Origin: Desertimonas flava
GTDB taxonomy: Bacteria; Actinomycetota; Acidimicrobiia; Acidimicrobiales; Ilumatobacteraceae
Length of the DNA: 35,484 nucleotides
Assembly (NCBI RefSeq): GCF_003426815.1
Contig: NZ_QKYK01000044.1
Location: 1-35,484, forward strand
Reading direction: 5' to 3'
The translations under genes and the position numbers were made by a program. The notes under the pieces were generated by a model. It was not told the DNA's origin and made no database searches. It saw nothing but the letters and a program-made list of their open reading frames with translations. The number at the start of each line of letters is the position of its first letter. Position 1 is the stretch's first letter. Positions 9,549 to 35,484 of this stretch are shown in pieces.

Positions 9549-9587
9549 GCAGCGCAGCGGCGATCGACCACTGACGCTCCCCCTTCG

Positions 9588-9700: not shown

Positions 9701-9707
9701 CGCGCGG

Positions 9708-10871: not shown

Positions 10872-10894
10872 CCCGGAATCCGAATTCTCAGGCG

Positions 10895-10922
10895 GCTCTG
10901 GTCGCGAAAACGCGACCAGAGC
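10895..10922 (+). terminator. terminator hairpin with AAAA loop
   Basis: Perfect 12-bp stem, GCTCTGGTCGCG / CGCGACCAGAGC, closed by an AAAA loop, 23 nt after the PLP-enzyme stop. Rho-independent-like without a T-tract. Confidence 0.75.
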
Positions 10923-11340
10923 GGTACAGGTGTGATCGCTTGCTTCGGCACGATGGTCTGCCCTGAGGCTGGAGTGCCGCTCGTAGGGACGTTTCGAGGG
11001 CTGGATCGTGACGGTTTTCGTCACGATCCCGCCCCCGATCACCGAATGGCACGATCGAGCCCCAGATTCTCGACGGTGTCCAGCGTCCGCCCGGCCACTG
11101 ATGTCGATCGCCTCACCGTCGGAGCAGCAGCCGTCACCGGCGACACGGCCCAACCTGCGGCCAGCAGAAGACGAGAGAGGCGCGACGGCCCCGCCGAAGT
11201 GCCGACCCAGCGCGCTCCAGAGGCCCACCCCGTAGGCACTTCCACCGTTCAGAACCCACGAAAGCGACAGGAGCGCCCGAAGTCGCGACCGGAGCGGCAC
11301 ACGAACGTGCCCATCCCCCGACTCGAGGCAGCCGGAGCCG
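10923..11340. other. gene-free stretch with a second hairpin
   Basis: About 420 nt in which no open frame looks like protein: the candidates are Arg/Pro/Ser-rich with no recognisable motif. It holds a perfect 11-bp hairpin at 11003-11029. Near 11280-11300 there is a degenerate copy of the right arm of the preceding terminator (CGCGACCGGAGCGGCAC compared with CGCGACCAGAGCGGTAC). A non-coding RNA or regulatory remnant is possible, but I see no proof. Confidence 0.5.
11003..11029. terminator. perfect hairpin, GTTTT loop
   Basis: GGATCGTGACG (11003-11013), loop GTTTT, CGTCACGATCC (11019-11029). On the minus strand it could terminate the small membrane protein transcript ending at 11341, although 310 nt downstream; on the plus strand it could be a second terminator for the PLP-enzyme gene. 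Function unproven. Confidence 0.5.
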
Positions 11341-11568
11341 CTACGGGGTCCGGTCGGCCTGGGTGCTCAGCGAACGGGACTCCGTCCCGCGGGTCGACCG
11401 GGCGGGGATCGCCACGAGGATCAGGGCGACGAAGACGGCACCGGCCGCCGCCCACAGCATCGGGTCGTCGTCGATGCGATCGAAGCCGAACACGGCGACC
11501 GCCGCGCCCACGGCGACGATGACGACGCCAACGAGCGCACTGAGCGGGTTGAAGCGATGTGGGGGCAT
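11341..11568 (-). CDS. small two-helix membrane protein
   Basis: 75 aa with two transmembrane helices: about 11-29 (ALVGVVIVAVGAAVAVFGF) and about 37-55 (MLWAAAGAVFVALILVAIP). A short acidic turn (DRIDDDP) lies between them and a basic/polar C-terminal tail follows. The ATG at 11568 is 3 nt after the stop of the PspC-domain gene. AGGA overlaps the end of that gene about 7 nt upstream of the ATG, so the two are translationally linked in one operon. Its role is unknown; the context suggests a membrane accessory of the envelope-stress module. Confidence 0.75.
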   Translation of the reverse strand: MPPHRFNPLSALVGVVIVAVGAAVAVFGFDRIDDDPMLWAAAGAVFVALILVAIPARSTRGTESRSLSTQADRTP

Positions 11569-11571
11569 GAT

Positions 11572-13242
11572 TCAGTCCTGTTCGTTCCGGGTCGTCGTGG
11601 GGGCCGTCGTGGGCGTCGTGGCGTTCGGGACAGCGACCGTGGTGACGCTCGGGGCATCGTCGTCCACTGACTCAGATGTCGCGACGGGCCGATTTGTTTC
11701 AGGTTCCGGCGAATTTTCGTGCGCCGCCCATTCGGACCGGACGGCGGCGACGTCGATCACGGCGCCGTCCGGCGTGACGATCGCCTGGTTGGGCAGCACC
11801 AGGTACCCGCTGCCGTCGGTGACGTACACGCTCGTCACCCCGTTGGGGCCGGCCATGTCACCGAACGGACCGCCCAGTTGGCCGTCCGGAGTCAGCCACA
11901 CCTGCTCGCTCGGATCCCCAGCGGGGTTCGGGAAGATGACCGTGCCGTCGGTGGTCATCGTGAGGCCGCCGCCGATGTCGACCCCGACGTTGGCGGCCGG
12001 CGCCGTGACTCGTGGGGGTTCGACGGGGACGAGCGGGACCGTGACCAGCTGCGGCGGCCGCGGCAGCGACATGTCGAGCCCCGAGATCGTGTGGAGCCGG
12101 AGCTCGCCGAGGCTCATGTCGACCCGGACGACCAGATCGGCCGGGCCATCGGGCCCGAGGCGGTAGGTGTGCCATTCGCCGTCCGACTCGAGTTCGCGGC
12201 CGGCGGGCCCGCGCACCGTGCCCGAACGCACCCGGCCGACCACGTCGACGGCGAGCGTGTCGTCAGCCCAGATCTCGACCGACCCGATCGCCACCCGGAG
12301 GTCGGGGGCCGGAACGTCGCCGGCGACCACCCCGTCGATCCAGAGCTCGATCCTGCCGGCGAGGACGTCGGTGTTCGCCTCGTACCTCGGCAGATCGGTG
12401 CTGCCGTCGGCCCAGACCGTGTACTCCTGCGCCCCGACGGTGAACTCCTCGAGCCCGACGCGGGCAGCATGGCCGGCGAGGAATCCGGCCCCAGCGAAGC
12501 CGAGAGCGGGCACCACGAGCCACAGCGCGAACCCGCGCCAGGCGCTCACCACGACGCCGAGGCCGCACACGATGGCCGCCGCGCCGAGCCATTGCTCGGG
12601 ATGGAGGCGACCGTCGTTGAGCTCGTCGATCACCATGCCGGAGAGCATCGTCACCAGGGCCATGGCGAGGGTCCACCGGCCGAGCCACGACACCGGTCGT
12701 GGTGTCACGACCGGCAGTCCACCGTCTGATGGCGTCGGAACCGCGAGCCCGCCGACCACCCTCGGCGCCGGCGCCGCGGTTCCGCCCGCCCGAGCGCTGG
12801 CGTCGGGTGGGCGCCACGCGGCCGCGGCCGGTGACGCCTGGCGCGGCACCCACAGCGCGACCGCCACGCCGCTCAGGGCGAACACGAGCGACCACGGCCC
12901 ACCGAGGTACTCGGTGGTCCCCGTGCCGAGGAGCGACAGCGAGCCGACCACGCAGATGAACAGACCGACGACCCCCCAGAACGTGGTGACCCCGCCGCGC
13001 CGCAGGCCACGGAGCACGCACCACAGCCCGGCGTAGAGGACCACACCGAAGCCGCTGAACAGGGTGAGAAAGACGAACGCCAGACGAACCCACACGGGGT
13101 CGGTTCCCAGGCGGGCACCGAGGTCCCGGCCGACCCCGCCGATCACGGCACCGTCGTCCCACGGGCGACGACGGCCGCCGACCGAAGGCTCGCCGGCCCG
13201 GGCGGGTGGCTCGAACGGCGGAGGCGGGGGGACGGTCTCCAT
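11572..13242 (-). CDS. PspC-domain membrane protein with LiaF-like C-terminal region
   Basis: About 556 aa. A Pro-rich N-terminus (1-30) is followed by a PspC domain (33-77; VIGGVGRDLGARLGTDPVWV, then a hydrophobic helix ending YAGLWCVL), several more membrane segments to about residue 255, and an extracytoplasmic beta region. The pieces SVEIWADDTLAVDVVGRV and RVDMSLGELRLHTISG resemble the cell-wall-antibiotic-response domain of LiaF-type proteins. The C-terminus is Thr/Pro-rich. PspC/LiaF proteins sense envelope stress and modulate histidine kinases. The start is ATG at 13242, chosen because TACCGT lies 7 nt upstream; an earlier in-frame start at 13401 would overlap the divergent kinase gene. 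It shares a control region with that kinase, pointing to one regulatory module. Confidence 0.85.
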   Translation of the reverse strand: METVPPPPPFEPPARAGEPSVGGRRRPWDDGAVIGGVGRDLGARLGTDPVWVRLAFVFLTLFSGFGVVLYAGLWCVLRGLRRGGVTTFWGVVGLFICVVGSLSLLGTGTTEYLGGPWSLVFALSGVAVALWVPRQASPAAAAWRPPDASARAGGTAAPAPRVVGGLAVPTPSDGGLPVVTPRPVSWLGRWTLAMALVTMLSGMVIDELNDGRLHPEQWLGAAAIVCGLGVVVSAWRGFALWLVVPALGFAGAGFLAGHAARVGLEEFTVGAQEYTVWADGSTDLPRYEANTDVLAGRIELWIDGVVAGDVPAPDLRVAIGSVEIWADDTLAVDVVGRVRSGTVRGPAGRELESDGEWHTYRLGPDGPADLVVRVDMSLGELRLHTISGLDMSLPRPPQLVTVPLVPVEPPRVTAPAANVGVDIGGGLTMTTDGTVIFPNPAGDPSEQVWLTPDGQLGGPFGDMAGPNGVTSVYVTDGSGYLVLPNQAIVTPDGAVIDVAAVRSEWAAHENSPEPETNRPVATSESVDDDAPSVTTVAVPNATTPTTAPTTTRNEQD

Positions 13243-13249
13243 GACAGCA

Positions 13250-13255
13250 ACGGTA
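13250..13255 (-). promoter_or_regulatory. -10 hexamer, leaderless promoter of the PspC protein
   Basis: On the minus strand TACCGT ends 7 nt before the ATG at 13242. No ribosome-binding site intervenes. Confidence 0.5.
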
Positions 13256-13280
13256 CGGACGCGCTCGTCACCGGGCCATC

Positions 13281-13300
13281 GGTGATCCCCCTGAATCACC
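13281..13300. promoter_or_regulatory. inverted repeat in divergent control region
   Basis: GGTGAT - 8 nt - ATCACC, a perfect 6-bp inverted repeat about midway between the divergent PspC-protein and kinase genes. It is a candidate site for the NarL-type regulator encoded at 14594. Confidence 0.35.
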
Positions 13301-13340
13301 CTGGTCGCGCTCAGGGGAGGCCCCGATACCCCGCGCCGGT

Positions 13341-14597
13341 GTGGTGCGCGACGATGGCCGGGTGACCACGACCGCGCCGGCGCGCACCCCCGGCGATGCA
13401 TCGGACGACCTGTCCCGCGATGGCGCGGTCCGCAGTCCCAACCACCTCTTGTTCGGCGTGTGCGGCTCGTTCGCCCAGCGCTGGCGCGTCGACCCGACGC
13501 TGCTGCGGGCGGCGACGGGACTCCTCGCCCTCACCGGCGGCATCGGTGTGGTGCTCTACGCGATCGGGTTCGCCGTGCTCCGTCGCCGGGAGCCGGGCGA
13601 GGCGGCGGGACCAGCCGACACGACGGCTGCCTCCGATCGCCGCCGCAACCTGGCCGTCGTCGCCGCCACCGCGGCGATCCTCGTCGGCGCGCGCGAGACC
13701 GACCTGTGGCCGGGCAACGAGATCGTCGTCCCGTCGGCAATCGTCGCCGCCGCGGTCGTGCTCATCTGGCTCCCCCGCCCGGCGGTCGCCGGACGCCTCA
13801 GCGTCCGAGCGATGGCGCCGTGGCTGCGGATCGCCCTCGGCGCCATCCTCGCCGTCGCCGGCGTGGCCACGCTCGCCGATCGAACCGGTGGCCTGGCCGA
13901 GGTCGGACGATCGGTGACGGCGATCGCCATCGCCCTCGGCGGGTTCGCCGTCATCGCCGCGCCGGCCATCGCCCGGCTCCTCGGCAACCTCGACGCCGAA
14001 CGAACGATGCGGATCCGTGAGGAGGAGCGGGCCGCACTCGCCGCCCACCTCCACGACTCGGTGCTGCAATCGCTGGTGCTGATCCAGCGCTCCGACGATC
14101 CGCGACGCATGGTCGGTCTCGCCCGGCGCCAAGAACGTGAGCTGCGCTCGTGGCTGTACGGCGCCCGGCCGATCGGCGAGCCGACGAGTCTCATGGCCGC
14201 CGTCGAAGCCGCCGCGGCGACGATCGAGGTGGACCACGAGACGCGCATCGAGGTCGTCACCGTCGGCGACGCCCCGCTCGACGACACGGCCCGCGCCCTC
14301 GTCGGCGCAGTGCGTGAGGCGGCGACCAACGCCGCCCGGCACTCCGGGGCCGGTCACGTCGACGTGTATGCCGAAGCCGACGAGAACGAACTGGTGGCGT
14401 TCGTGCGGGACACCGGTCGCGGATTCGACCCGACGGCGATCGCCGACGACCGCCACGGCCTCGCCGACTCGATCATCGGCCGCGTCGAGCGCGCCGGGGG
14501 CCGGGCCACCGTGACCAGCCGGCCGGGCGACGGCACCGAAGTGGAGCTGCGGTTGCCGCGTCGGCGTACCGTGCGCGTGGAGGAGGGTTCCCGATGA
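13341..14597 (+). CDS. sensor histidine kinase with N-terminal PspC-like domain (NarL/LiaS family)
   Basis: 418 aa from GTG at 13341; GTG at 13362 is an equally possible start. Residues 35-82 (LLFGVCGSFAQRWRVDPTLL, then a hydrophobic helix) form a PspC-like domain. Membrane helices follow at about 104-117, 131-146, 161-178 and 190-213. The dimerisation domain has H238 in HLHDSVLQSL (HisKA_3 type), and the HATPase domain has EAATNAARHSG and DTGRGFDP. The kinase probably senses membrane or cell-wall state within the bilayer, because large extracellular loops are absent, as in intramembrane-sensing kinases. It overlaps the response-regulator start by 4 nt (ATGA), so the pair is translationally coupled, and it is divergent from the PspC/LiaF-like gene. 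Confidence 0.93.
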   Translation: MVRDDGRVTTTAPARTPGDASDDLSRDGAVRSPNHLLFGVCGSFAQRWRVDPTLLRAATGLLALTGGIGVVLYAIGFAVLRRREPGEAAGPADTTAASDRRRNLAVVAATAAILVGARETDLWPGNEIVVPSAIVAAAVVLIWLPRPAVAGRLSVRAMAPWLRIALGAILAVAGVATLADRTGGLAEVGRSVTAIAIALGGFAVIAAPAIARLLGNLDAERTMRIREEERAALAAHLHDSVLQSLVLIQRSDDPRRMVGLARRQERELRSWLYGARPIGEPTSLMAAVEAAAATIEVDHETRIEVVTVGDAPLDDTARALVGAVREAATNAARHSGAGHVDVYAEADENELVAFVRDTGRGFDPTAIADDRHGLADSIIGRVERAGGRATVTSRPGDGTEVELRLPRRRTVRVEEGSR

Positions 14598-15295
14598 CCA
14601 ACACGCCGTCTGGCCAGCCGGACGCGGCGACCCGCGACGACGCGATCGCGCTGGTGCTCGTCGACGATCACGCCCTGGTGCGCGCCGGCGTGCGCGCCGA
14701 GCTCGACCGCGTCGATCAGCGCGGGCGACCGGGACTCACGATCGTCGGCGAGGCGGCGTCGGTCGAGGACGCCGTCGACGTGATCCGCCGCACGCGGCCC
14801 GATGTCGCGCTGCTCGATGTCCACCTCCCCGGCGGCGGCGGGCGCTCCGTGATCGAGGGCGTCGCCGGCGACAAGCTGGCGACGCGGTTCCTGGCGCTGT
14901 CGGTCTCCGATGCCGCCGACGACGTGATCGGCGTGGTCCGCGCCGGCGCCCGCGGGTACGTCACCAAGACCATCGCCGCCGACGACCTGTACGACGCGAT
15001 CGTGCGGGTGCACGGTGGCGATGCCGTGTTCTCACCACGTCTCGCCGGCTTCGTGCTCGATGCCTTCGCCAACGACACCCCGGCGCCGTCCGATCCCGAC
15101 CTCGACCGGCTCACCTCCCGCGAGCGCGAGGTGATGCGGTTGATCGCCCGCGGCTACGCGTACAAGGAGGTCGCCAGCCGGCTGTGCCTGTCGGTGAAGA
15201 CGATCGAGACCCACGTGTCGGCCGTGCTGCGCAAGCTGCAGCTGTCGAGCCGCCACGAGCTCACCGCCTGGGCCAACGAACGCCGCCTCGTCTGA
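14594..15295 (+). CDS. NarL/FixJ-family response regulator
   Basis: 233 aa. The receiver domain has the acidic pair VDDH (about 23-26), phospho-acceptor D75 (ALLDVHLPG), a conserved Ser in ALSVSD (about 103) and K125 (GYVTK). The C-terminal LuxR-type helix-turn-helix starts with LTSREREVMRLIARG and contains SVKTIETHVSAVLRKL. A GGAGGAGGG sequence precedes the ATG. It is the partner of the overlapping kinase and likely regulates its own module, including the divergent PspC/LiaF-like operon. Confidence 0.95.
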   Translation: MTNTPSGQPDAATRDDAIALVLVDDHALVRAGVRAELDRVDQRGRPGLTIVGEAASVEDAVDVIRRTRPDVALLDVHLPGGGGRSVIEGVAGDKLATRFLALSVSDAADDVIGVVRAGARGYVTKTIAADDLYDAIVRVHGGDAVFSPRLAGFVLDAFANDTPAPSDPDLDRLTSREREVMRLIARGYAYKEVASRLCLSVKTIETHVSAVLRKLQLSSRHELTAWANERRLV

Positions 15296-15319
15296 ACCGG
15301 CGATCTCCCGACCGCTTCC

Positions 15320-15431
15320 GTTCTGCTGGCGCGAAAAGCCCCGACGAGCGCCTACCTGCTCCACCAGAACACGCGCCTCCGTTCTGCTGGCGCGAGAAAC
15401 CCCGACGACGGGCTACTTGCTCCAGCAGAAC
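15320..15431. repeat. palindromic 61-bp-period repeats, left cluster (2 units)
   Basis: Two 51-nt units (15320-15370 and 15381-15431) repeat every 61 nt. Each begins GTTCTGCTGG and ends CTCCASCAGAAC, so the ends are inverted repeats that can pair. Both contain CCCCGACGA in the middle. They fill the space between the response regulator and the phosphofructokinase stop codon. Confidence 0.85.
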
Positions 15432-15448
15432 GACGGTGTCGAATCGGG

Positions 15449-16573
15449 TCAGGCCGGCGGTCGATCGCCGAAGTTGATGCCGATCTCGCGGGCTGTCAGG
15501 ACCGTGTCGCAGTCGAGCGGCACCGACTTCATCCGGCTCGTCGCCTCGGCGAGCGGCACGTAGTCGACCGTCGGCGGGTTGAGCGACACCATCACGCCGT
15601 CGTAGCCGGCGACCAGGCCGCGAATCGCCGCCGCGCCGAACCGCAGCCCGAGGAGGCGATCGAACGACGTGGGCGAACCGCCACGGAGCAGGTGGCCGAG
15701 CACCACCGTGCGGGCCTCCTTGCCGGTCAACTCCTCGAGCCCCGCGGCCACCTGGGCGCCGATCCCGCCGAGCTTCTCGGCCTGGCCGACCGCTCTGCCC
15801 AGCACCGACACCGTGCCGCCGACGGGCGTCGCGCCTTCGGCGACCACCACGATGGAGAACTTGGCGCCGCGCTTGTCGCGCTCGGCGATCAGGTCGGCGA
15901 CCGGTTGCAGGTCGAAGGGGATCTCGGGGATGAGGATCGCGTGCGCGCTCGACGCGACGCCTGCCTCGAGCGCGATCCAGCCGGCGTAGCGGCCCATCAC
16001 CTCGACGACGATCACGCGGCCGTGCGACGTCGCCGTGGAGAAGAGCCGGTCGATGCACTCGGACGCGAACGACACCGCCGTGTCGAAGCCGAACGTCTGA
16101 TGGGTCTTGTCGAGGTCGTTGTCGATGGTCTTGGGCACGCCGACGACGCGCAGACCGGCCTCGTGCAGGCGATTGGCGATGGCGAGCGATCCGTCGCCGC
16201 CGATCGTGACGAGGGCGTCGATGCCGGCGTCGGCGAACATCCCGACCAGTTCCTCCGTCCGGTCCACCTCGACGTAGCTGCCATCGGGCTGCAGGACGGG
16301 ATAGCAGGTCGGGTTGCCGCGGTTCGTGGTGCCGAGGATGGTGCCACCGAGGGGGACGATGCCGCGGACGGAGTCCCTCGTGAGGTGGATCACGCCTCCC
16401 TCCGGGTAGCCGTCGGGGTTCATCAGCCCGTTGAACCCGTCGCGGATGCCCACGACCTCCCATCCCTGGTTGTCCCCCGCCAGCACCGCGGCGCGGATGA
16501 CGGCGTTGAGGCCCGGGGCGTCCCCGCCGCCCGTGGAGATCGCGATGCGCTTGATCGGTGGCAACTGGCTCAC
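15449..16573 (-). CDS. pfkA: 6-phosphofructokinase, mixed ATP/PPi signature
   Basis: 374 aa, group III-type PFK. It phosphorylates fructose 6-phosphate in glycolysis. N-terminal phosphate loop STGGGDAPGLNAVIR (13-27); nucleotide site TIGGDGS (123-129); catalytic loop PKTIDND (147-153); and substrate-binding MGRYAGW and PEIPFD. The residue after GGD is Gly (G104 in E. coli numbering), as in ATP enzymes, whereas the loop carries Lys (position 124) as in PPi enzymes. That Gly/Lys combination is known from actinobacterial ATP-PFKs, so ATP use is the more likely reading. The start is GTG at 16573, with TACGCT 6 nt upstream. The frame stays open into the repeat cluster to 16762, but that extension is repeat translation, not protein. 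Confidence 0.93.
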   Translation of the reverse strand: MSQLPPIKRIAISTGGGDAPGLNAVIRAAVLAGDNQGWEVVGIRDGFNGLMNPDGYPEGGVIHLTRDSVRGIVPLGGTILGTTNRGNPTCYPVLQPDGSYVEVDRTEELVGMFADAGIDALVTIGGDGSLAIANRLHEAGLRVVGVPKTIDNDLDKTHQTFGFDTAVSFASECIDRLFSTATSHGRVIVVEVMGRYAGWIALEAGVASSAHAILIPEIPFDLQPVADLIAERDKRGAKFSIVVVAEGATPVGGTVSVLGRAVGQAEKLGGIGAQVAAGLEELTGKEARTVVLGHLLRGGSPTSFDRLLGLRFGAAAIRGLVAGYDGVMVSLNPPTVDYVPLAEATSRMKSVPLDCDTVLTAREIGINFGDRPPA

Positions 16574-16579
16574 GGCGGG

Positions 16580-16585
16580 AGCGTA
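16580..16585 (-). promoter_or_regulatory. -10 hexamer, leaderless promoter of pfkA
   Basis: On the minus strand TACGCT ends 6 nt before the GTG at 16573. It supports this start over in-frame codons in the repeat cluster upstream. Confidence 0.5.
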
Positions 16586-16647
16586 GGCCACTCCCCACCC
16601 TTCGCGAAGGGTGGGCGACGAGCGCATCGCCGAACGCTCGGCCCCGG

Positions 16648-16820
16648 GTTCTGATGGAGCAGAAAGGCCGTGGTTGGTCGTACCTGCTCCAGCAGACACA
16701 TGGCGCCTGGTCTGATGGAGCAGAAAGGCCGTGGTTGGTCGTACCTGCTCCAGCAGACACATGGCGCCTGGTCTGGTGGAGCAGAAAGGCCGTGGCAGGT
16801 CCTACCTGCTCCAGCAGAAC
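16648..16820. repeat. palindromic 61-bp-period repeats, right cluster (3 units)
   Basis: Three units start at 16648, 16709 and 16770, exactly 61 nt apart. The first two are nearly identical and the third has diverged slightly. Each has TCTGRTGGAGCAG on the left and CTGCTCCAGCAGA on the right, an almost perfect 13-bp inverted repeat around about 22 nt. The last unit ends CCAGCAGAACGACGG, exactly as the left cluster ends at 15421-15436, so both clusters belong to one family. They flank pfkA. Confidence 0.88.
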
Positions 16821-20408: not shown

Positions 20409-22961
20409 ATGCTCGGACGGGTGGTGACGGCAGCGAAGATCCTGCTCAGCGGCACGCTCCTCGCAGGCGTCGTAGCGGTCGCAGGGGACACGATGGGCGC
20501 CACCGGCGCTGGGACCACGGTCGAACGTGCCCCTGTGGCGCCGAGCAGCCCGGCGAACGACCCGGTGACGCTGACGTTCACGGCCAACCGCACCTCGGCC
20601 GCACCCGGCGATCGGCTCGTGTTCACGGCCACTGTCGCCAACCGATCGACCACCGTGCAATCGTTGCAAGGCACGATCGACACCCCGCCCGCCGTTCAGC
20701 TCTGGGGATACTCCGAGATGTGTGCACCGTGGCCGGGTATCGGCTACGTCGCCTGCCACGGACTGACGCCGTTCGAGCTGCAACCTGGCGAACGGGTGTC
20801 GTTCTTCGTGGAGGTGTTCGTCAGGGCGACGGCGGACCCGCTCGACCTCGAGGTGGCTGCCCGATTCGGCGATCTCGATCCGGCCACCCTGACGATCCCG
20901 GTCGCTACCGGAGCGGAGGTCGCTCCTCAACCGCCCGAAGACCTCGAGGCGACGTGGAACGGTGGCGAGTCCGTCTGGCTCCAATGGTCCGCCCCGAGCG
21001 AGATCGGCAGCTCCTGGATCACGGACTACGTCGTCGAGCGGGCATCGTCCCCGAGTGGGCCGTGGACGACGCTGTTCGACGGGACCTACGGCGGCGCGGT
21101 CGGTTACCTCGGCGACACCCCGCCCGTACCTGCGACCGACCTCTGGTACCGCGTCGCTGCGGTCAACGACGGCGGGCAGGGGGCTTTCACCCCGCCCGTT
21201 TCGGTGCAGCCGGAAGGACACCTCCCCTCGGCACCACGGGAGTTGTCCTTGCAGCCGACCGGCGCCGGCGGCGAGTTGCTCGCTACCTGGCGACGACCGG
21301 CGTATGTCGGCAACGCGTTCGCCGAGTACGAGGTGCAGCTGTCGGCCGATCGCGGCGCCACGTGGGAGCCGGTCGTCATCGAGCCGGGCTTCACGACGTC
21401 AGCACGTCTCCGTGACCTGCGGCCCGGGGGTCGCTACACCGTCCGCGTGGCCATGCGCACCAGCCACGGCGTCGGTGCCTGGTCGTCGGCGACGGCTACC
21501 GTGCCCCGCCGTCCAGCCGCGCCGTCCGCACCTCGCCTCACGGCGACGACGCTGAGTCCGACCGAGATCCGGCTCGACTGGCGCCCGCCGACGTCCACCA
21601 ACGGCTCCGACGTCGTCGAGTACCGCTACGAGATCTCCGCCGACGACGGCGCAACGTGGTCACCCGGGTTCGGCGGCGACGGCTCGGCCCGATCCACCGT
21701 CGTCGCCGGCCTCACCGATGGCACCCGATACCGCATCCGGGTGGCGGCACGTAACTCGGTCGGCTGGAGTCCGTTGAGCAACACGGCATCTGCCGTTCCC
21801 GCTCTCCGGCGGCCGGCCGCCCCGACGCTGACCGCGACGGTTCTCGGACCGACGCAGATCCGCCTCGACTGGACGGCGGCGAGCGACGGCGGCTCCCCGA
21901 TCCTCCGATACCGCTACCAAATCTCGGCGGACCGAGGCCGGACCTGGCAATCGGATGTGATCGACGATCCGACGGTGCGCTCGGTCCTCCTCGACGGCCT
22001 CGTGTCCGGCCGGGCCTACCTCGTCCGGATCGCCGCGTCCAGCGAGCTCGGATGGGGCGCGACGAGCAACGAGGTCTCCGTGACACCGCGGGTCGTTCCC
22101 CCGTCGGCCCCGACACTCACGTTCACCACGCGCACCACGTCGCAGGTGGAGCTCCAGTGGACGGAGCCGGTCTCGGACGGCGGCTCACCGATCGTCGAGT
22201 ACCGCTACGAGGTCATGTCGATGTACGACCCGACCTGGCGAGACGGCACGACGATCGACGCGGCCGAGAGATCATTGATCGTCGACGACATCAACGTGTT
22301 CGACGGGCTCAGCTTCCGCATCGCAGCGAGAAGCGAGATCGGCTGGGGCGCGTGGAGCAACGTGGTCGACGTTCCGCCGTTCCCCCCACCGCCCTCCGCG
22401 CCGGGCCTGATCGGCGAGCCGTGGGGACCGGGAGAAGTGCGACTGACCTTCCTGCCCCCCGAGCTAGGTGCCGAGGACGTCCTCGGCTACGTCTACGAGA
22501 TGTCGACCGACGGCGAGTTCTGGACCAGCGCCGGATGGGCTGGCGCACCGCGAACCACTGCGATCGTGACATGGCTCGAGCCGGGGGTGACGTACTACTT
22601 CCGGGCGGCCGCCGGCAGTTCGTGGGGACAGAGCCCGATGAGCGAACCCGTCGCGGTGACCGTCGGGAACGATCCGCGGCCGTCGGACCCCTCGGACACG
22701 GAGCCGCCCGACTCGTGGCCGCCCGACTCCTGGCCGCCCGACTCCTGGCCACCCGACACCTGGCCACCGGACACCTGGCCACCCGACACCTGGCCGCATA
22801 TCGACACGTGGCCACCCGACACGTGGCCACCCGACACCTGGCCACCCGACACCTGGCCGCCGATCGACAGCGAACCGCCGGTCACCGACTGGCCGTGGCC
22901 GTCGGAACCGGCCATCGGCTCGGAGCCGGAGTCCGGAGTCCCCGACAGCGTCCCCAACTGA
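20409..22961 (+). CDS. secreted multi-fibronectin type III protein with PPD(S/T)W tail
   Basis: 850 aa. Signal peptide about 1-28 (AKILLSGTLLAGVVAVAG). Residues 50-165 form a DUF11/CARDB-like domain (LTFTANRTSAAPGDRLVFTA). Six FN3 domains follow in tandem, about 174-757; each ends in the typical Y/L-x-(V/I)-R-(V/I)-A-A strand and a SN-x-V-x-P linker (GTRYRIRVAARNSVGWSPLS in domain 3). The tail (about 766-818) has nine exact PPDSW/PPDTW pentapeptides plus the variant PHIDTW, then an acidic Pro-rich end. No LPXTG or other anchor is visible. The start is ATG at 20409 after a strong GAGGAGG. FN3 arrays in secreted bacterial proteins usually mediate adhesion or act as spacers in glycan-active enzymes; no catalytic domain is present here. 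A 276-nt gap separates it from aceE. Confidence 0.88.
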   Translation: MLGRVVTAAKILLSGTLLAGVVAVAGDTMGATGAGTTVERAPVAPSSPANDPVTLTFTANRTSAAPGDRLVFTATVANRSTTVQSLQGTIDTPPAVQLWGYSEMCAPWPGIGYVACHGLTPFELQPGERVSFFVEVFVRATADPLDLEVAARFGDLDPATLTIPVATGAEVAPQPPEDLEATWNGGESVWLQWSAPSEIGSSWITDYVVERASSPSGPWTTLFDGTYGGAVGYLGDTPPVPATDLWYRVAAVNDGGQGAFTPPVSVQPEGHLPSAPRELSLQPTGAGGELLATWRRPAYVGNAFAEYEVQLSADRGATWEPVVIEPGFTTSARLRDLRPGGRYTVRVAMRTSHGVGAWSSATATVPRRPAAPSAPRLTATTLSPTEIRLDWRPPTSTNGSDVVEYRYEISADDGATWSPGFGGDGSARSTVVAGLTDGTRYRIRVAARNSVGWSPLSNTASAVPALRRPAAPTLTATVLGPTQIRLDWTAASDGGSPILRYRYQISADRGRTWQSDVIDDPTVRSVLLDGLVSGRAYLVRIAASSELGWGATSNEVSVTPRVVPPSAPTLTFTTRTTSQVELQWTEPVSDGGSPIVEYRYEVMSMYDPTWRDGTTIDAAERSLIVDDINVFDGLSFRIAARSEIGWGAWSNVVDVPPFPPPPSAPGLIGEPWGPGEVRLTFLPPELGAEDVLGYVYEMSTDGEFWTSAGWAGAPRTTAIVTWLEPGVTYYFRAAAGSSWGQSPMSEPVAVTVGNDPRPSDPSDTEPPDSWPPDSWPPDSWPPDTWPPDTWPPDTWPHIDTWPPDTWPPDTWPPDTWPPIDSEPPVTDWPWPSEPAIGSEPESGVPDSVPN
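22704..22862 (+). repeat. 15-nt coding repeat (PPD(S/T)W)
   Basis: Tandem 15-nt units of the type CCACCCGACACCTGG, about ten copies, encode the Trp-rich tail of the FN3 protein. Copies differ mainly at third positions; one unit is interrupted (CATATC insert). Copy number is likely to vary by slippage. Confidence 0.9.
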
Positions 22962-23652: not shown

Positions 23653-25104
23653 TCAGTTGCCGACGTAGAACGCCTCGCAGCTGCGCGCCGCGGTCTCGAA
23701 GACCTCGACGACGGCGGGGTCGGCGAGCGGGTCGGCGGCACGGTCGCGCCAGCGGGCCACGCCCTCGAGCGCCTTGCGCTTGATCTCCTCCTCGGGTGCA
23801 CCGGCGGCCAGACCCATCGCGGCCGCAGGCGTCCCGGCGAGCAGGAGCCGTTCCAGCTCCTCGCGTTCGCGGTCGGCGACGCGCGCCTCACCGGTCGTGA
23901 CGAGGTGGGCACCACGCATGCGGGCGAACTCCACGGCCCCGGCCTCGAGCTGTTCCACCTCGCGGTCGAGCTTGACCGCGGCGTCCGGATGGGTCGAGCG
24001 CATCGTGGCGGCGAGCGATCGCAGGGCCTGCACCGCCGTGCGGGCCTTGAGGATCCTCGACCGGGGCATGAAGTGCTCGGCGATCAGCCGGCGCAACTCG
24101 CTCAAACCGGAGCGGGCGACGAGCTTGGGGCCGAGCGTGGCGGCCGTGTTGGCGCCGGCAGCCAACTCCTGGAGCGACACCCGCACACCGAACATGCCGA
24201 GGCGGGAGAGCAGTTCGCGCCGCAGCTCGACGGTGAGATCGCTCGAGCTGACGTCGCAGAACTCGTCGGTGGACAGCAGCATCCGCTCGAGGACATCGGG
24301 CCCGGCCGCGGCGAGCGTCCGCAGGTTGGCCACCTCGTCCTCACGCAGGGTGAGCCCGGTCTCGGCGAGCAGACCGGCGAGCGGGGTGACCGAGGCGCAC
24401 AGGCCACGGATCTGCGGATCGGCGGCGTAGCGCCGGGCGATGCGGCCCGCCGACTCGATGGCGTCGAGGCGGCCGGCGCCGATCTCGTCGGCGCGCGACA
24501 GCACACCGACGGCGTTGACCGGAGACGACGCCGCCACCGATCGGTCCATGAACGCCTCGAGGAAGGCGACGTCGGCGGCGTGCACGTGGCGCATCAGGTA
24601 GATGACGGCATCGGCGTCACCACCCGCACCCTCGTCGGGATCGAGGAACTCTCGAGTGCGCCGCGAGTTCTCGTCGTTGAGCGAGGCGATTCCGGGCGTG
24701 TCGATGAGCGTGATCGTGTCGAGCGTGGAAGCGGGCCACCGCACGTCGAGCCAGCGCACCTGCCGTCCGCTGAGGTCACCGAGCTCCACGTCGAGGGCAC
24801 CGTCCTGGCGCTTGAACGCCAGCGGACGTTCGGTGCCGTCGACGAGCCGGGCACTCACCTGGTAGCTGGTGCCCTTGCGGTACCACGACACGATCCGCGT
24901 GCATTCGCCGGCGTCGGTGGGCGCCAGACGCTCGCCGACCATGGCGTTGAGGAGCGTCGACTTGCCGGCCTTCACCCGACCGGCGATCGCCACCTGCAAC
25001 GAGCCCTCGATGCGCCGGCGGATGGCCGCCGCGGCCTCGGCGACCGACGGTTCCTCACGCTCGAGGCGGGTGGTGATCGCCACCACGGCGTCGCTGACGC
25101 TCAC
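23653..25104 (-). CDS. dynamin-like GTPase 2 (IniC-like)
   Basis: About 483 aa. GTPase motifs: P-loop AGRVKAGKSTLLN (41-53), switch I Thr in APTDAGECTRIV, G3 TLIDTPGIAS (132-141) and G4-like SRADE (203-207). The rest is alpha-helical with Arg/Glu-rich stretches (VADREREELERLL) and no membrane helix, as in mycobacterial IniC. The start is GTG at 25104, whose GTGA overlaps the stop of the upstream dynamin gene by 4 nt; the frame is open further upstream but inside that gene. Bacterial dynamin-like proteins often work as pairs on membranes, and this one is probably the soluble partner. It is last in the operon, stopping 6 nt from the convergent HhH-GPD gene. Assignment to IniC rests on gene order and domain type, not on an alignment. 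Confidence 0.88.
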   Translation of the reverse strand: MSVSDAVVAITTRLEREEPSVAEAAAAIRRRIEGSLQVAIAGRVKAGKSTLLNAMVGERLAPTDAGECTRIVSWYRKGTSYQVSARLVDGTERPLAFKRQDGALDVELGDLSGRQVRWLDVRWPASTLDTITLIDTPGIASLNDENSRRTREFLDPDEGAGGDADAVIYLMRHVHAADVAFLEAFMDRSVAASSPVNAVGVLSRADEIGAGRLDAIESAGRIARRYAADPQIRGLCASVTPLAGLLAETGLTLREDEVANLRTLAAAGPDVLERMLLSTDEFCDVSSSDLTVELRRELLSRLGMFGVRVSLQELAAGANTAATLGPKLVARSGLSELRRLIAEHFMPRSRILKARTAVQALRSLAATMRSTHPDAAVKLDREVEQLEAGAVEFARMRGAHLVTTGEARVADREREELERLLLAGTPAAAMGLAAGAPEEEIKRKALEGVARWRDRAADPLADPAVVEVFETAARSCEAFYVGN

Positions 25105-26966
25105 TTCGCCGCTCCCAACACGGCCTCGACCTTCTTCAGCGCGGCGATGCGCTGGTCGAGCTCGCCGCCCTTCTTCTGCCGCTCCTGCTGGGAGCGCTGT
25201 GCATCCTCCTGAGCGCTCTTGGCGGTGTTGGTCCACGTGCGCTGGAGCTCGCCGAGCCGTTCGGTGAACTCGTCGCGAAGCTCACGCTGGATGTCGCGCG
25301 TCACCGAGGTGAGCTGGTTGGTGACCTCGAACTGGACGTCGTCGAGGAACTGCCGCACCTGCTGTCTGGCCGCCTGGCGACGCATCTGCACCTTGCGCTT
25401 GCGATCGTCGGCGAGACCCATCCCACCGAAGAGGGCCCCGATGCCGAGCAGCACGGGGTTGGTGGCCAGCAGGGCACCGGCGGCAGCAGGCAGGAAGCTG
25501 CCCATCATCCCGAACATCATCACGCCGCCCTGCGCCCCACGAAGGCCGACCATGCCCTTGTCGAAGGCCCGCTTCTTCCCCGAGCCGCCGGCGTCGAGCG
25601 CCTTCCCCTGCCACAGGTCCGACACGTCCAACCAGTTCGTGTCGCCGGACGGGCCGAGCTCGATGTTGAGGTCCTCGTCACCCAGCGTCTCGACCACCGC
25701 ATCGCGGATCGCCAGCCGGCCCTCCTCCAGTGCGAGGAAGGCCCGAGCCACCTCGTCGGCGACGTCGGCTTGGAGGTCGTGGACCATGTCGTCCCACGTC
25801 TCGCCCTTCGAGAGACCCTCGATCACCTCATCCATGTTGCGTGAGATCGTGCGCATGCCGGCCCGGAACTCGAACATGACCGAGTTGGACAGATCGGCCG
25901 TGCGATCGCCGACGATCGTCGACCAGCGGGCCGCCGGACCGCGCAGGTGCTCGAGCCGGGCCTTCGCCACGTCGAGGCGCTCCATGGCCGCCTTCGTCGC
26001 CGCCGGGTCGCCGAGGACCGCCTTCTCGGCCTCGAGGCCGGATCGCACCATCGCCGCGATGCCCGCCGCCTCGCTCGCCGAGCGCTTCGCGGCGCCGGCC
26101 TTGGCAGGCGTGACGACCTTGTCGCCCAGCTCCTTCACCAACACCGGGAAGTTGCTGTGCTCGTTGAGCTCGCGGTCCTTGCGGGCGAGTGCCTCGGCCC
26201 GCACGACGCTGGACACCGCCACCATCGGGACGGGCAGGCGCTGGCGCTCGAGGTGACCGCGATTGAGGTCGGCGATGCGCTGCCACTGCGGGTAGAGGTC
26301 GATCTTCGTCAGGGCGAACATCACCGTCGGGCACAGCTCCGTCGCCCGCCGGAGGAACTCGACTTCCGGGGCCGACAGCTCGGCGGAGGCGTCGGACACG
26401 AACACGAGGCCGTCGGCGAAGGGTAAGAAGGCGAGCGTGGCCGCGGCGTGGCCGGCACCGAGGCCGCCCATGCCCGGGGTGTCCACCATCACGAGGCCTT
26501 GCTTGAGCAGCGGGCTGGACACGGAGATCTCGACCCGCTCCACCTGCTTCGAGTTGCGAGGGTTGCCGGCCTCGCTGACCCAGTTGGGAAGGTCCTCGAC
26601 GGCGACCGGCTGGCTGGCCGTGGCCCCGTCGTCGCCCCGTCGACGGACGGTGGCGGTGGTCTCGTCGCCGTAGCGGACCAAGGTGATCGCCGACGTCGCC
26701 AGATCGTCGTCCACCGGACAGATCGTCCGGCCGAGCAGACCGTTGACGAGTGAGCTCTTGCCCTGCTTGAACTCCCCGACCACGCACACGACGGTGCTCG
26801 GGCGCTTGAGGCGGGCCGCCGCGGCCGACGCCCGCTTGGCGAGGTCGGGCCGCTCCACCTGCTGGAGGATGCGGACGAGCTCGACAATGCCCGCCTCCGA
26901 TCCCGCGGCCGGAGCGGCTGCGGGAGCGGAGGCGGGCGTCGCAGGAGCCGCAGGGGCGTTCGTCAC
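25101..26966 (-). CDS. dynamin-like GTPase 1 (IniA-like)
   Basis: 621 aa. An Ala/Pro-rich N-terminus (1-24) precedes the GTPase domain: P-loop VGEFKQGKSSLVN (63-75), G2 Thr in LATSAITLV, G3 VDTPGMGGLG (161-170) and G4 TKID (220-223). A long helical stalk follows. A hydrophobic, Gly/Met-rich paddle at about 490-530 (MMFGMMGSFLPAAAG, then ATNPVLLGIGALFGGMG) could insert in the membrane. The C-terminus is coiled-coil-like (QEDAQRSQQERQKK). This layout matches IniA, which remodels membranes and is linked to isoniazid tolerance in mycobacteria. The GTG start at 26966 overlaps the repetitive-protein stop (GTGA), and its own stop overlaps the next dynamin start, so the three genes are translationally coupled. 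Confidence 0.9.
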   Translation of the reverse strand: MTNAPAAPATPASAPAAAPAAGSEAGIVELVRILQQVERPDLAKRASAAAARLKRPSTVVCVVGEFKQGKSSLVNGLLGRTICPVDDDLATSAITLVRYGDETTATVRRRGDDGATASQPVAVEDLPNWVSEAGNPRNSKQVERVEISVSSPLLKQGLVMVDTPGMGGLGAGHAAATLAFLPFADGLVFVSDASAELSAPEVEFLRRATELCPTVMFALTKIDLYPQWQRIADLNRGHLERQRLPVPMVAVSSVVRAEALARKDRELNEHSNFPVLVKELGDKVVTPAKAGAAKRSASEAAGIAAMVRSGLEAEKAVLGDPAATKAAMERLDVAKARLEHLRGPAARWSTIVGDRTADLSNSVMFEFRAGMRTISRNMDEVIEGLSKGETWDDMVHDLQADVADEVARAFLALEEGRLAIRDAVVETLGDEDLNIELGPSGDTNWLDVSDLWQGKALDAGGSGKKRAFDKGMVGLRGAQGGVMMFGMMGSFLPAAAGALLATNPVLLGIGALFGGMGLADDRKRKVQMRRQAARQQVRQFLDDVQFEVTNQLTSVTRDIQRELRDEFTERLGELQRTWTNTAKSAQEDAQRSQQERQKKGGELDQRIAALKKVEAVLGAAK

Positions 26967-28936
26967 CCGTTCGTCCCGAGGTCGTCGAACATCGTGTCGA
27001 AGCTGTCGTCGATGCTGTCGGCGGCGGCATACGACTCGCTGAAGTCGCTCTGCGGCTCGGGCTCCGGCTCGGGGGCGTAGTCGGCGGCGGGCTCGGCGGG
27101 GGCGGACACCTCGGGCGCCGAGAAGTCGCTGCCGCTGTCGAAGCCGTCGTCGAACCCAGCGTCCTGACCAGCGCCACCCTCGGCGCTCGGTGCCTCGTCG
27201 AAGGGCATCGCTTCGTCACCGATGCCGCCGCCGTTGACGTCGGGCATCGTCTCGTCACCGATGCCGTCTCCGGCGGTGCCAGTGGCGGGAGCGTCGGGCG
27301 TGCCGTCACCGTCCGTGTCGACCATCGTCTCGTCGCCGATGCCGTCACCGTCGGCACCAGCCGCGGGAGCAGGAGCGTCAGGGATGCCGTCGCCGTCGGT
27401 GTCGACCATCGCTGCGCCGTCAGCGCCGGGCAACTGCTCGTCGCCGGGTGCGCCCGGGTCGACCAACGGATCCGTGATCGAGACGGGCTCGGGGTCGCGG
27501 TCGAGGCCGAGCGACGTCGCCGCCTCGCGGAGCTGGTCGAACCACGTTGCGCTGTCGCCGCCCAGCGAGCGAGAGAGGTCCTCGGCCTGCTGAGCGAGCT
27601 GCACCAGCCATCCCGGTCCGGCCTCGAGCGTGGGCAGGGTGAGCTCGACCGGCGAGATCTCGGGGATGTATCCGGTCCCCCAGCAGTTGGTGTAGTCCGC
27701 ACCGGCGCCGCCGCCCAGGTCGAAGATGCTGCTGGTGACGCTCGAGTCGCCCATCGCACCGTTCACGGCCGAGGTGATGCCCGTCAGACCGAGGCCGCCG
27801 AGGATGGAGGCCATGCCGCTTTCGGCGGCGCCTGCCGCGCCGGCGACTCCCACAGCCTGGCCGGCGGCACCGGCCACGGACTCGAAGACATCATCGACCA
27901 TCCCGAAGATGCCGCCGGAGGACGAGTCGGCACCGGCCGCACCGGCCGCACCAGCGATGCCACCGATGGCGCCGGCGACGTCACCGGCATCGATCCCCAG
28001 GGCGTCACCGAGCTTGCCGGCCAGCTCACCGGCGTCGAGACCGGCGAGGCTGCCGAGCTGCCCCGCGGCGTTGCTCAGGTCGCCACCGACGATGTTGCCG
28101 AGCGCTCCGGTGATGTCACCGGCGTCGATCCCGAGCGCCTCGCCGAGCTTGCCGGCCAGATCACCGGCGTCGAGGCCCGCCAGGCTGCCGAGCTGGCCGG
28201 CCGCGTCACCGCCGACCAGCCCGCCGATGGCACCGGTGATGTCGCCGGCGTCGATCCCGAGCGCCTCGCCCAGCTTCCCGGCCACATCACCGGCGTCTAC
28301 ACCAAGGGCTTCGCCCAGCTTGCCGGCGATGCCCGCGGCGTCGAGGCCCGTGAGGTCGCCGAGCTGGCCGGCGAGGTCGCCGGCGTCGATGCCGAAGGCG
28401 CCGCCGATCGTGCTGGCGATGTCGCTGGCGTCGATCCCGGCCAGCTCGCCGAGCTTGCCGACGAGGTCTCCCGTGTCGATGCCGAGGGCGGCGCCGATGT
28501 CGCCGGCGTCGATACCGATGGCCTGCGTGATGGCGCTGCCGGCGGCGTCGATCAGCGACCCGCCGTTCAGCAGGTTGGTCGCGATGTCGGTGACGCCTGC
28601 CGGCAGGGGCAGCCCGAAGGCGCCGACCGCCGTGTCGAGGGCGTTGCCGAGATCGAAGTCGCCCTGCAGCAGCTGCGTGGCACCGGTGGCGATCATCCCG
28701 CCGACCGGACCGCCAACCAACGTGCCAAGCATGCCGGCGTACGGGGCGACGTGGCCGAGGGCATCGCCGAGCACGCCGCCGGTGGCGTCGTCGATCACAC
28801 CGGCCGTCGTGCTGACGACGGTGTTGACGGCGTCGACCGCCTCATCCACCGTCTCGTAGGCAGCTTCGGCGACGTCGACGACGACGTCGGCGGCGTCCTC
28901 CACGAACTCGGCGATCTCGTCAAATGGCCATCCCAT
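26963..28936 (-). CDS. repetitive Gly/Ala/Asp-rich protein (IniB-like by position)
   Basis: 657 aa. Acidic helical N-terminus (1-60), hydrophobic Gly-rich segment (about 62-90), then 13 units, mostly of 15 residues (141-328), of the form G-(I/L/V)-D-A-G-D-x-x-G-K-L-G-E-A-L. A Gly/Ala-rich stretch follows, then an acidic region with TSP3-like motifs (VDTDGDGIPDAP, VDTDGDGTPDAP) and a Pro/Glu tail ending FDDLGTNG. No signal peptide is seen. A strong GAGGAGGAAG precedes the ATG. Its position directly before two coupled dynamin genes mirrors mycobacterial iniB, which is also a Gly/Ala-rich repetitive protein, but similarity is in composition, not clear sequence. It could be a scaffold or cargo for the dynamins; this is inference. 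Confidence 0.85.
   Translation of the reverse strand: MGWPFDEIAEFVEDAADVVVDVAEAAYETVDEAVDAVNTVVSTTAGVIDDATGGVLGDALGHVAPYAGMLGTLVGGPVGGMIATGATQLLQGDFDLGNALDTAVGAFGLPLPAGVTDIATNLLNGGSLIDAAGSAITQAIGIDAGDIGAALGIDTGDLVGKLGELAGIDASDIASTIGGAFGIDAGDLAGQLGDLTGLDAAGIAGKLGEALGVDAGDVAGKLGEALGIDAGDITGAIGGLVGGDAAGQLGSLAGLDAGDLAGKLGEALGIDAGDITGALGNIVGGDLSNAAGQLGSLAGLDAGELAGKLGDALGIDAGDVAGAIGGIAGAAGAAGADSSSGGIFGMVDDVFESVAGAAGQAVGVAGAAGAAESGMASILGGLGLTGITSAVNGAMGDSSVTSSIFDLGGGAGADYTNCWGTGYIPEISPVELTLPTLEAGPGWLVQLAQQAEDLSRSLGGDSATWFDQLREAATSLGLDRDPEPVSITDPLVDPGAPGDEQLPGADGAAMVDTDGDGIPDAPAPAAGADGDGIGDETMVDTDGDGTPDAPATGTAGDGIGDETMPDVNGGGIGDEAMPFDEAPSAEGGAGQDAGFDDGFDSGSDFSAPEVSAPAEPAADYAPEPEPEPQSDFSESYAAADSIDDSFDTMFDDLGTNG
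27953..28516 (-). repeat. 45-nt coding repeats in the IniB-like gene
   Basis: Thirteen tandem units, mostly 45 nt, encode the 15-residue GIDAGD-type repeat. Two units are shorter (11 and 12 residues). Blocks such as units 7-9 and 10-12 repeat as larger modules (GxDAGDxTGA, GGD, GLDAG), suggesting growth by duplication of several units at once. Confidence 0.85.
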
Positions 28937-29015
28937 GATGTCTTCCTCCTCAGGGGGCGGTCACTGGACCGCCGAACGAACTGGTTCGATCTTGGCGATC
29001 GAGCGTCTCGGCGTC

Positions 29016-29033
29016 ACCGGGAGCATTCCCGGT
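29016..29033. other. short hairpin between the LpqN-like and IniB-like genes
   Basis: ACCGGGA - GCAT - TCCCGGT, a perfect 7-bp stem in the 138-nt gap, followed by a direct repeat (GTTCTCGTCC twice, about 29050-29070). It may be a weak terminator or processing site between the two minus-strand genes. Confidence 0.45.
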
Positions 29034-29074
29034 TCCCACACCGGGGCCCGTTCTCGTCCGTTCTCGTCCGTGCG

Positions 29075-29605
29075 TCAGAGGAAGCGGAAGCTGGCGATGA
29101 TCTCGACGAACGTCCGCCCGGCCACCGCCATGTGGTCGGCCGTGCTCGTGCCGATGATCTGGAAGAGATCCACCGTCTTCGCGTCGTCGGCGGCCGGGGC
29201 GAGGAACAGGGCCTGCAGCTGAGCCAGCTTGCGGCCCGACTGCGGCGCCTCGAGGTCGACGCCCCGGAGGTACACGACGTTGTTGCCGAAGCGGGCCACC
29301 CGCTCGGTGTTCACGGTGGCCGAGGGCGCGCCCGCCTTCAGCCTTCCCCAGCTGGCCGTCGCCGCGGCCTCGAGATCGACGGAGCGGGCAACGCGGTCAT
29401 GGGTGATCATGGCGTTGTCCCAGAACTCGTCCGTCGACTTCGGAGCCCGGATGACGGCGACCGCCCCCGGTGCGTCGTCGACCACCCAGCCGTCAGGCGC
29501 GGCGAAGACGAACGACGGCACCGGACGGATCGCGGCGCTCGGATACACGACGACCTGGTGCCCACCCGCACTCTCGATTTGTGTGGTTGTGTCCATAACG
29601 GTCAT
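29075..29605 (-). CDS. LpqN/PsbP-like (DUF1795-type) protein
   Basis: 176 aa, no signal peptide. The sequence reads as the alpha/beta fold of the LpqN/PsbP superfamily: FVFAAPDGWVVDDAPGAVAVIRAP near residues 32-55 (split at W-VVDD), a central helical stretch, NNVVYLRGVDL, and a C-terminal DLFQIIGTSTADH and FVEIIASFRFL. Mycobacterial LpqN/LpqT are lipoproteins; here the lipobox is absent, so the protein should be cytoplasmic. ATG at 29605 is used; TAGGTT lies 9 nt upstream. It is 138 nt before the IniB-like gene on the same strand and is probably the first gene of the dynamin operon or a separate unit next to it. Family assignment is from memory and moderate. Confidence 0.65.
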   Translation of the reverse strand: MTVMDTTTQIESAGGHQVVVYPSAAIRPVPSFVFAAPDGWVVDDAPGAVAVIRAPKSTDEFWDNAMITHDRVARSVDLEAAATASWGRLKAGAPSATVNTERVARFGNNVVYLRGVDLEAPQSGRKLAQLQALFLAPAADDAKTVDLFQIIGTSTADHMAVAGRTFVEIIASFRFL

Positions 29606-33522: not shown

Positions 33523-35427
<1,905 letters not shown>

Positions 35428-35433
35428 GATGGG

Positions 35434-35484
35434 CTCCGTGGGTGCGGGCGGGCGGGCGTCGGCTGGCGCGGGCGGGCGGGCGTC
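35434..35484. repeat. GGGCGGGCGGGC tandem repeats at window edge
   Basis: Two copies of a GCGGGCGGGCGGGCGTC block, separated by GGCTGGC, lie just upstream of the 634-residue gene. The block runs off the window. On the minus strand it is C-rich and untranslated; on the plus strand the G-runs could form a quadruplex. Confidence 0.6.

Follow-up and report, generated by a model that had tools for sequence, protein, structure and literature searches.

Mycobacteria carry a well-known operon, iniB-iniA-iniC (iniBAC), that is induced by drugs, and the IniA protein of Mycobacterium smegmatis (MsIniA) binds acidic lipids and deforms and cuts membranes in vitro, activities that its authors tie to drug resistance (PMC6715688). 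Dynamin-type GTPases likewise occur in adjacent pairs in the BDLP, DynA/DynB, LeoABC and Cj-DLP1/2 systems. The Campylobacter dynamin-like proteins (DLPs) are reported to form a heterotypic tetramer (PMC6104087), the DLP adjoining Nostoc BDLP1 bears a DnaJ-like domain (PMC6104087), and in cyanobacteria the genes downstream of one set of BDLPs, the 'chaperone group', encode proteins with a DnaK domain (PMC5827413). Here we describe an iniBAC-related locus of Desertimonas flava, found in a stretch of 35,484 nucleotides (the window) that is a complete contig (C39) of the 6.2 Mb draft genome, and compare it with related loci. Among the neighbours observed, the most constant one of the IniA/IniC pair is an Hsp70-type membrane ATPase, which an earlier interpretation of the window (the sequence-only reading) had overlooked.

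At the core of the locus, three consecutive genes on the minus strand encode a repetitive protein in the iniB position (the slot protein, P0001; 657 aa, 26963..28936), an IniA-type dynamin-like GTPase (621 aa, 25101..26966) and an IniC-type dynamin-like GTPase (483 aa, 23653..25104). The two GTGA overlaps claimed in the sequence-only reading can be read directly in the sequence, each 4 bases long, with the stop of the slot gene lying over the GTG start of IniA (...GGGTGACG...) and that of IniA over the GTG start of IniC (...AAGTGAGC...). IniA matches MsIniA (PDB 6j72) with an E-value of 1.3e-88 over residues 35-613 and is much nearer to it than to BDLP (2j68, E 2.4e-10). Dynamin_N is matched by both proteins (IniA 75.1 bits, E 8.7e-21; IniC 53.2 bits, E 4.6e-14), and the similarity of IniC to BDLP (E 1.9e-7) and to IniA (E 5.4e-6) is confined to the GTPase domain. 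The G-motifs read GEFKQGKS, DTPG and TKID in IniA, and GRVKAGKS, DTPG and SRAD in IniC, the fourth motif of the latter deviating from N/TKxD. IniA also contains a hydrophobic stretch of the paddle or lipid-loop kind at residues 482-513 (19-residue Kyte-Doolittle (KD) peak 1.71), aligning opposite the predicted membrane segment and the lipid-interacting loop of MsIniA, whereas the hydropathy of IniC is lower (KD peak 1.37), with no comparable stretch. IniC is 42-53% identical to the gene in the same position of three relatives.

In a quick FastTree tree of 105 rows (100 IniA and 5 IniC; rows below 350 residues excluded, long branches flagged), the window IniA, which is similar to MsIniA over most of its length, falls among the IniA rows and apart from the IniC rows. 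It groups with eight other rows from actinobacterial metagenome-assembled genomes (support 99), and this group is nested in a larger clade with Chloroflexota rows (support 100); the mycobacterial-type IniA rows lie in a separate clade, together with other Actinomycetes. From this placement the pair therefore looks old, with the mycobacterial operon as one branch. The 6j72 match, the Dynamin_N matches and the tree bear out the earlier assignment of a dynamin-like GTPase with a hydrophobic paddle and a second dynamin-like GTPase as relatives of IniA and IniC in iniBAC order, and the homology of this pair to mycobacterial IniA/IniC is close to certain.

The occurrence of such a pair outside mycobacteria, to which the sequence-only reading drew attention, is not special to this lineage, since IniA/IniC pairs are widespread in Actinomycetota, with 427 confirmed stretches carrying an IniA locus in the contig database. 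Within the class (Acidimicrobiia) they are patchy, an IniA-type match (1e-20) being found in 32 of 296 genomes. The best 80 loci were kept for comparison, a sample biased toward the query. Some loci are near-duplicates (L025/L041, L026/L073 and L082/L186 are repeats, and L107/L111 nearly so); the last is the only repeat pair noticed inside the 80, and all counts were made without removing duplicates. An IniC-type match, scored with a profile that includes the window IniC among its seeds, is present in 79 of the 80 loci, the exception being truncated by its contig end, and the pairing of the two GTPases is thus conserved.

Of the 36 loci flanked by 7.5 kb or more on each side (full loci), 33 have an Hsp70-type gene close to the pair, as do 58 of all 80 loci. 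The same association is seen across the 296 class genomes, where 24 have both IniA and a linked-type Hsp70, 8 have IniA only, 1 has the Hsp70 only and 263 have neither (Fisher 2e-27, a value that ignores relatedness). Linked-type Hsp70 matches, 25 genomes in all, were told from DnaK by a limit set post hoc (linked at 1.1e-74 or below; DnaK-type at least 8.9e-70 among the matches listed, ending at model position 359). The two genes share one contig in 18 of the 24 genomes that have both, 27 to 10,777 bases apart. In 4 of 10 genomes counted (those of L064, L088, L078 and L101), the linked gene is the sole Hsp70 besides DnaK at E 1e-8, one weak MreB-like match aside. The linked Hsp70s also separate from four canonical DnaK proteins with support 100 (FastTree, long branches flagged; 89 of 92 rows kept, those below 220 residues excluded). 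In view of this linkage and co-occurrence, we are confident, short of certainty, that the Hsp70 is functionally part of the module. A large LuxR-type protein is found in 33 of the 36 full loci as well. Beside the linked Hsp70 of one locus (L025, genome G013), a second, very divergent Hsp70-like frame (12306-13850, plus strand; 18 bits) was noticed.

The ATPase part of these proteins is well preserved. Positions D8, G10, T11, K70, D171, G173-D178 and G312-S315, which we take to be the phosphate and adenosine motifs, are invariant in 10 rows (the two copies on contig C25 of this genome and eight others), and a PF00012 match was confirmed in both C25 copies, whose ATPase part lies outside the window. 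In the linked copies scanned, the PF00012 matches end at about model position 369-377 of 599, compared with 598-599 in DnaK, and therefore the substrate-binding domain is missing from the linked copies. Among 92 Hsp70 frames, 4 were DnaK, 3 were fusions and 13 had tails too short to judge, leaving 72 to be evaluated. A hydrophobic segment (KD at least 1.6) was found in 68 of these 72 tails, exactly one in 64, while three DnaK controls peaked at KD 1.06. Lysine plus arginine around the segment amounts to 205 in the 15 residues before it and 40 in the 15 after, with the N-side higher in 67 of 68 tails. The segment and its positive-inside bias therefore predict that the ATPase lies inside and the tail (median 200 residues) outside, and a cytosolic ATPase with one membrane segment and an outside tail is the likely topology.

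The tails themselves differ. Twenty frames, all of them Hsp70 (five seeds, two identical), have in common an end domain marked by HVHFFF-like and cysteine motifs; this conserved cysteine-bearing domain would be part of the outside tails and, within these loci, is confined to Hsp70 frames. Pfam at E 0.001 names no further domain in the Hsp70 copy of this genome that carries it, and BON, NHL or FHA domains are found in other linked Hsp70 copies. Fusions bring the partners closer still: in three genomes, all of the same family, a single frame encodes the Hsp70 ATPase together with IniA (G007 and G010 by Pfam; both of these and G014 by a local profile), and a protein kinase and IniC occupy one frame in G007, G010 and G029. 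These two kinds of fusion argue for physical contact of the parts.

In D. flava itself, the Hsp70 genes are split between two contigs. The last frame of the window (33523..35484, minus strand), open to the contig end, is the C-terminal part of an Hsp70 that we call Hsp70b, with a proline-rich linker, an Ala-rich weakly hydrophobic segment, a Gly run, repeat units and an acidic end. It resembles the Hsp70b tails of the related loci L038 (gene at 4584-7259, whose tail is 44% identical across about 192 aa), L037 and L040, and a like stretch of L035; the N-terminus of the best-aligned relative, that of L038, is an Hsp70 ATPase domain. Contig C25 terminates within an Hsp70 frame just past the ATPase domain, and the order at its end is Hsp70a (with membrane segment and end domain), a LuxR/AAA gene, a small gene and the ATPase half of Hsp70b. 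In the Hsp70 tree the two C25 copies group with Hsp70b of L037, L038 and L040 (support 99) and with Hsp70a of L037 and L038 (97), and both L037 and L038 show the order Hsp70a, regulator, Hsp70b, P0004, slot gene, IniA and IniC, P0004 being the gene in front of the slot gene described below. From this gene order and these tree groups, C25 therefore most likely continues into the window, and we regard the join as very probable. Methyltransferase and glycosyltransferase genes lie between Hsp70b and P0004 in the window.

Several observations were made on these genes in passing. After the ATPase part, the Hsp70b frames of three genomes contain an in-frame ATG (MSD) with a GGAG-type stretch upstream (window 35400-35430, minus strand; L037 at about 6379; L040 at about 2323), from which a separate tail protein could be made. 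The 87-aa gene between regulator and Hsp70b (L151 13628-13891, that is C25:66627-66890) appears by eye like small genes in the corresponding position of L040 (889-1110) and L038 (4192-4476). A second cluster in the genome (L152, C34:85000-104000), at 5879-16732, has an Hsp70 that carries the end domain and gives beta-propeller-type matches. It also has a protein kinase with a C-terminus similar to the final part of the IniC profile (70 bits), in which Pfam gives no dynamin match. The C25 Hsp70a matches phrog_22485, of unknown function, over residues 1-347 (E 1.9e-45), and IniA, IniC and P0004 have no match in PHROGs.

How does this arrangement compare with mycobacteria? Mycobacterial iniBAC with iniR shares with the window the homology and order of IniA and IniC, a low-complexity first gene and, across the probable join to C25, a nearby LuxR-type regulator; the window clade differs in its lack of the IniB N-terminal domain, its better conserved Hsp70s and an extra gene of PsbP-type fold. 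In each of the six loci closest to MsIniA (L177-L182, 70-88% identity, same genus, taken as mycobacterial), a large LuxR-type regulator is accompanied by one or two Hsp70-like genes, any DnaK not counted. These Hsp70-like genes have low profile scores (83 to 138 bits) and a membrane segment, and three of them were confirmed by Pfam PF00012 at 54-73 bits. A dnaK-like gene of M. smegmatis is noted in PMC5760070 and is probably of this degenerate linked kind. With the L177, L178 and L182 regulators, which we take to be IniR, the C25 LuxR/AAA protein aligns at its helix-turn-helix (HTH) end alone; the L027 and L185 regulators, by contrast, are relatives of these IniR-like proteins (phmmer about 1e-28 and 4e-73 versus L177). 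Another LuxR/AAA gene, at 5261-7981 of the window, was considered as IniR and rejected, as its HTH alone aligns well with the IniR-like proteins and some 16 kb separate it from the operon. PF04602, the arabinosyltransferase family of the ethambutol targets, gives three matches in each of four mycobacterial-type genomes, but none turned up in this genome or in three relatives (the search did not extend to mycolic-acid genes). The inducer should therefore differ from the mycobacterial one, as had been anticipated.

The cyanobacterial dynamins with DnaK or DnaJ neighbours are a described parallel, likened here by description; the passages on them name neither an actinobacterial case nor a membrane segment, nor a fusion of Hsp70 with dynamin. 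In the literature searched, whose coverage leaves out most subscription journals, neither an actinobacterial membrane Hsp70, nor its fusion to IniA, nor the link to iniBAC turned up.

The first gene of the operon is repetitive and Gly/Ala-rich, as had been described, with 37% Gly+Ala. Its product has a predicted helical N-terminus (low confidence), Leu/Gly/Asp-rich repeats, DxDxDG-type stretches and an acidic C-terminus, and close relatives have differing middles with a similar N-terminus and acidic end. AlphaFold run with relatives gave a poor model (mean predicted local distance difference test (pLDDT) 43.8; 466 of 657 residues below 50), and a fold assignment was dropped. No NCBIfam match was found up to E 0.1, including NF038175, the IniB N-terminal domain, and among the slot proteins of the clade to which the window belongs, and all other frames of these loci, none matches a local IniB-N profile (11 sequences). 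The same profile picks up 47 of the 89 slot proteins (E 1e-3), from Actinomycetes, Nitriliruptoria and others; this is probably an undercount, since slot proteins were chosen mechanically and L024, L028, L043, L046, L047, L087 and L099 are among the likely wrong frames. In Acidimicrobiia relatives, NF038175 gives weak, sub-cut-off matches to two slot proteins (L026 E 0.011, L027 E 2.6e-4). The iniB-iniA-iniC homology claimed earlier thus stands for the two GTPases and their order; the first protein, which the sequence-only reading already found unlike mycobacterial IniB in sequence, is by NF038175 and the local profile no IniB homologue. Because the IniB N-terminal domain was not found, the window is not classed as iniBAC proper, and its first protein is best called a slot protein, sharing with IniB its position and low complexity.

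The acidic C-terminus recurs in 12 of 12 hand-picked slot rows, compared with 17% of 660 genes, and a stricter acid-aromatic end motif is found in 7 of the 12 rows and 7 of the 660 genes, the window slot protein not being matched. As side observations, the slot proteins of the clade (L033-L040, L024 and the window) end acidic and often aromatic, for example in DDVWDDL, and the Hsp70b tails end likewise acidic; DTDGDGxxD-type stretches, like calcium-binding repeats, occur at about residues 510-580 of the slot protein, which has no visible signal peptide.

In front of the slot gene, at a distance of 138 bases and on the same strand, lies P0004 (176 aa, 29075..29605, minus strand). Its AlphaFold model is confident (pLDDT 86.4) and shows a PsbP/Mog1-type fold, with near ties to 3lyd (Z 16.2), CyanoP (15.9), LpqN (6e5d, 15.1 over 148 residues) and SciW (14.8). 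The predicted fold is thus like that of the LpqN/PsbP/Mog1/Eag proteins (SciW being a type VI secretion chaperone) at a sequence identity of 14-19%. In contrast to LpqN, which is an exported lipoprotein, P0004 has no signal peptide or hydrophobic N-terminus in its sequence. P0004 matches no Pfam or NCBIfam family up to E 0.1, and nine members of its family give no match to the LpqN sequence family against Pfam up to E 1. The name 'LpqN-like' given to this gene is therefore right for the fold and wrong for sequence family and signal peptide. P0004 homologues (above 50 bits) are present in 7 of the 80 loci, plus L024, a seed of that profile; they lie on the strand opposite IniA in 6 of the 7 and are co-oriented with it in the window. 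P0004 is lineage-specific. Farther away, at 20409-22961 (plus strand), a protein that by eye looks secreted and fibronectin-like has a C-terminal run of WPPDS/WPPDT units, of which eight were counted.

Taken together, we propose that the genes of the window are the effector half of a module that repairs membranes under envelope stress and is homologous to the iniBAC core. In this module a membrane-spanning Hsp70-type ATPase would couple the state of the envelope to membrane-repair dynamins; as a whole, we hold this to be rather probable. IniA and IniC would form a heterotypic dynamin pair, binding and bending the plasma membrane and cutting or resealing it. The usual Hsp70-type partner of the pair would have a cytosolic ATPase, one membrane segment replacing the substrate-binding domain and a tail outside, which may sense the envelope or be anchored to it, and the state of the ATPase would recruit or switch the dynamins at a damaged patch; we give this sensing and switching an even chance. 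The LuxR/AAA regulator would induce the genes and set their level, the slot protein, differing between lineages, may serve as an acidic scaffold or client of low complexity, and P0004 would be its lineage-specific helper. More tentatively, and at slightly under even odds, the ancestral ini system may have been an Hsp70-dynamin machine, in which a transmembrane ATPase without substrate-binding domain reads the envelope via a variable outside tail and drives the dynamin pair by direct contact, up to gene fusion, with IniB a fast-changing accessory; mycobacteria would have kept a worn-down ATPase.

A number of observations weigh against this proposal. Three of the 36 full loci (L045, L087 and L099) have no Hsp70, nor do 8 of the 32 IniA-type genomes, seven of them with weak IniA matches (1e-28 to 1e-36) and one with a strong match (G286); the class-wide profile searches scored only a handful of candidates in each genome, in most cases 4 and 6, making misses possible. 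The topology is based on hydropathy and charge, the segment of the window's own copy is weak (KD 1.41), and 4 tails have no segment (one partly masked), including the FHA-bearing one of L028. In the Hsp70-IniA fusions the best segment is that of the dynamin itself, and an outside tail is thus not essential. The ATPase half of the Hsp70 is missing from the window contig, and the join of C25 and C39 is inferred from gene content, the contig ends having no sequence overlap. The LuxR linkage is weaker than it appears, with 4 to 146 LuxR-type HTH proteins per genome, the mycobacterial-type Hsp70-like genes are degenerate, and no experiment on a non-mycobacterial member was found in the literature searched. 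In the simplest alternative, the slot protein, IniA and IniC suffice as a plain iniBAC-like operon, and the Hsp70 is there by chance or as a merely co-regulated chaperone neighbour. This would agree with mycobacterial papers that treat iniBAC as a unit (PMC5760070, PMC13413693), and with an Hsp70 orientation and distance that vary by lineage, 22 of the 80 loci, mostly with a short flank on at least one side, showing none. However, it is hard to reconcile with the co-occurrence across 296 genomes, the separate clade with a membrane tail and the Hsp70-IniA fusion in three genomes, and we judge it unlikely.

The GTPases, Hsp70, kinase and LuxR regulator could also form a conflict or phage-defence module with a threshold-set response. 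Kinase-IniC and FHA-Hsp70 forms do exist, the L032 kinase-IniC matches PADLOC-model kinases (best E 7.7e-42) and IniA matches the PADLOC Leo dynamin models (LeoA 1.8e-16), but these matches concern general kinase, dynamin and HTH parts, and both C25 Hsp70s, the slot protein and P0004 match no PADLOC model. Other GTPase systems with Hsp70 or kinase have been described as conflict systems (PMC7159879); they belong to a different GTPase family (DO-GTPases), and the accessible part of that paper does not mention dynamins. Since, in addition, no effector domain was seen among the proteins scanned with Pfam (the neighbours not being exhaustively annotated), we consider a conflict role a slim prospect. 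The remaining alternative, a module for cell division or septation comparable to the DynA/DynB dynamin pair of Streptomyces, is very improbable, as no division gene was found among the neighbours scanned with Pfam and the adjacent LuxR/AAA regulators fit an inducible response.

If the proposed Hsp70-dynamin coupling is true, an Hsp70-type ATPase would serve as a membrane switch instead of a chaperone, and the variability of IniB between species would be explained, IniB perhaps not being the core of the system. With a dedicated membrane ATPase linked to IniA, and sometimes fused with it, the question of what switches IniA on at the membrane becomes directly testable. The findings suggest an older machine for envelope repair, of which the drug-induced operon of mycobacteria is one branch.

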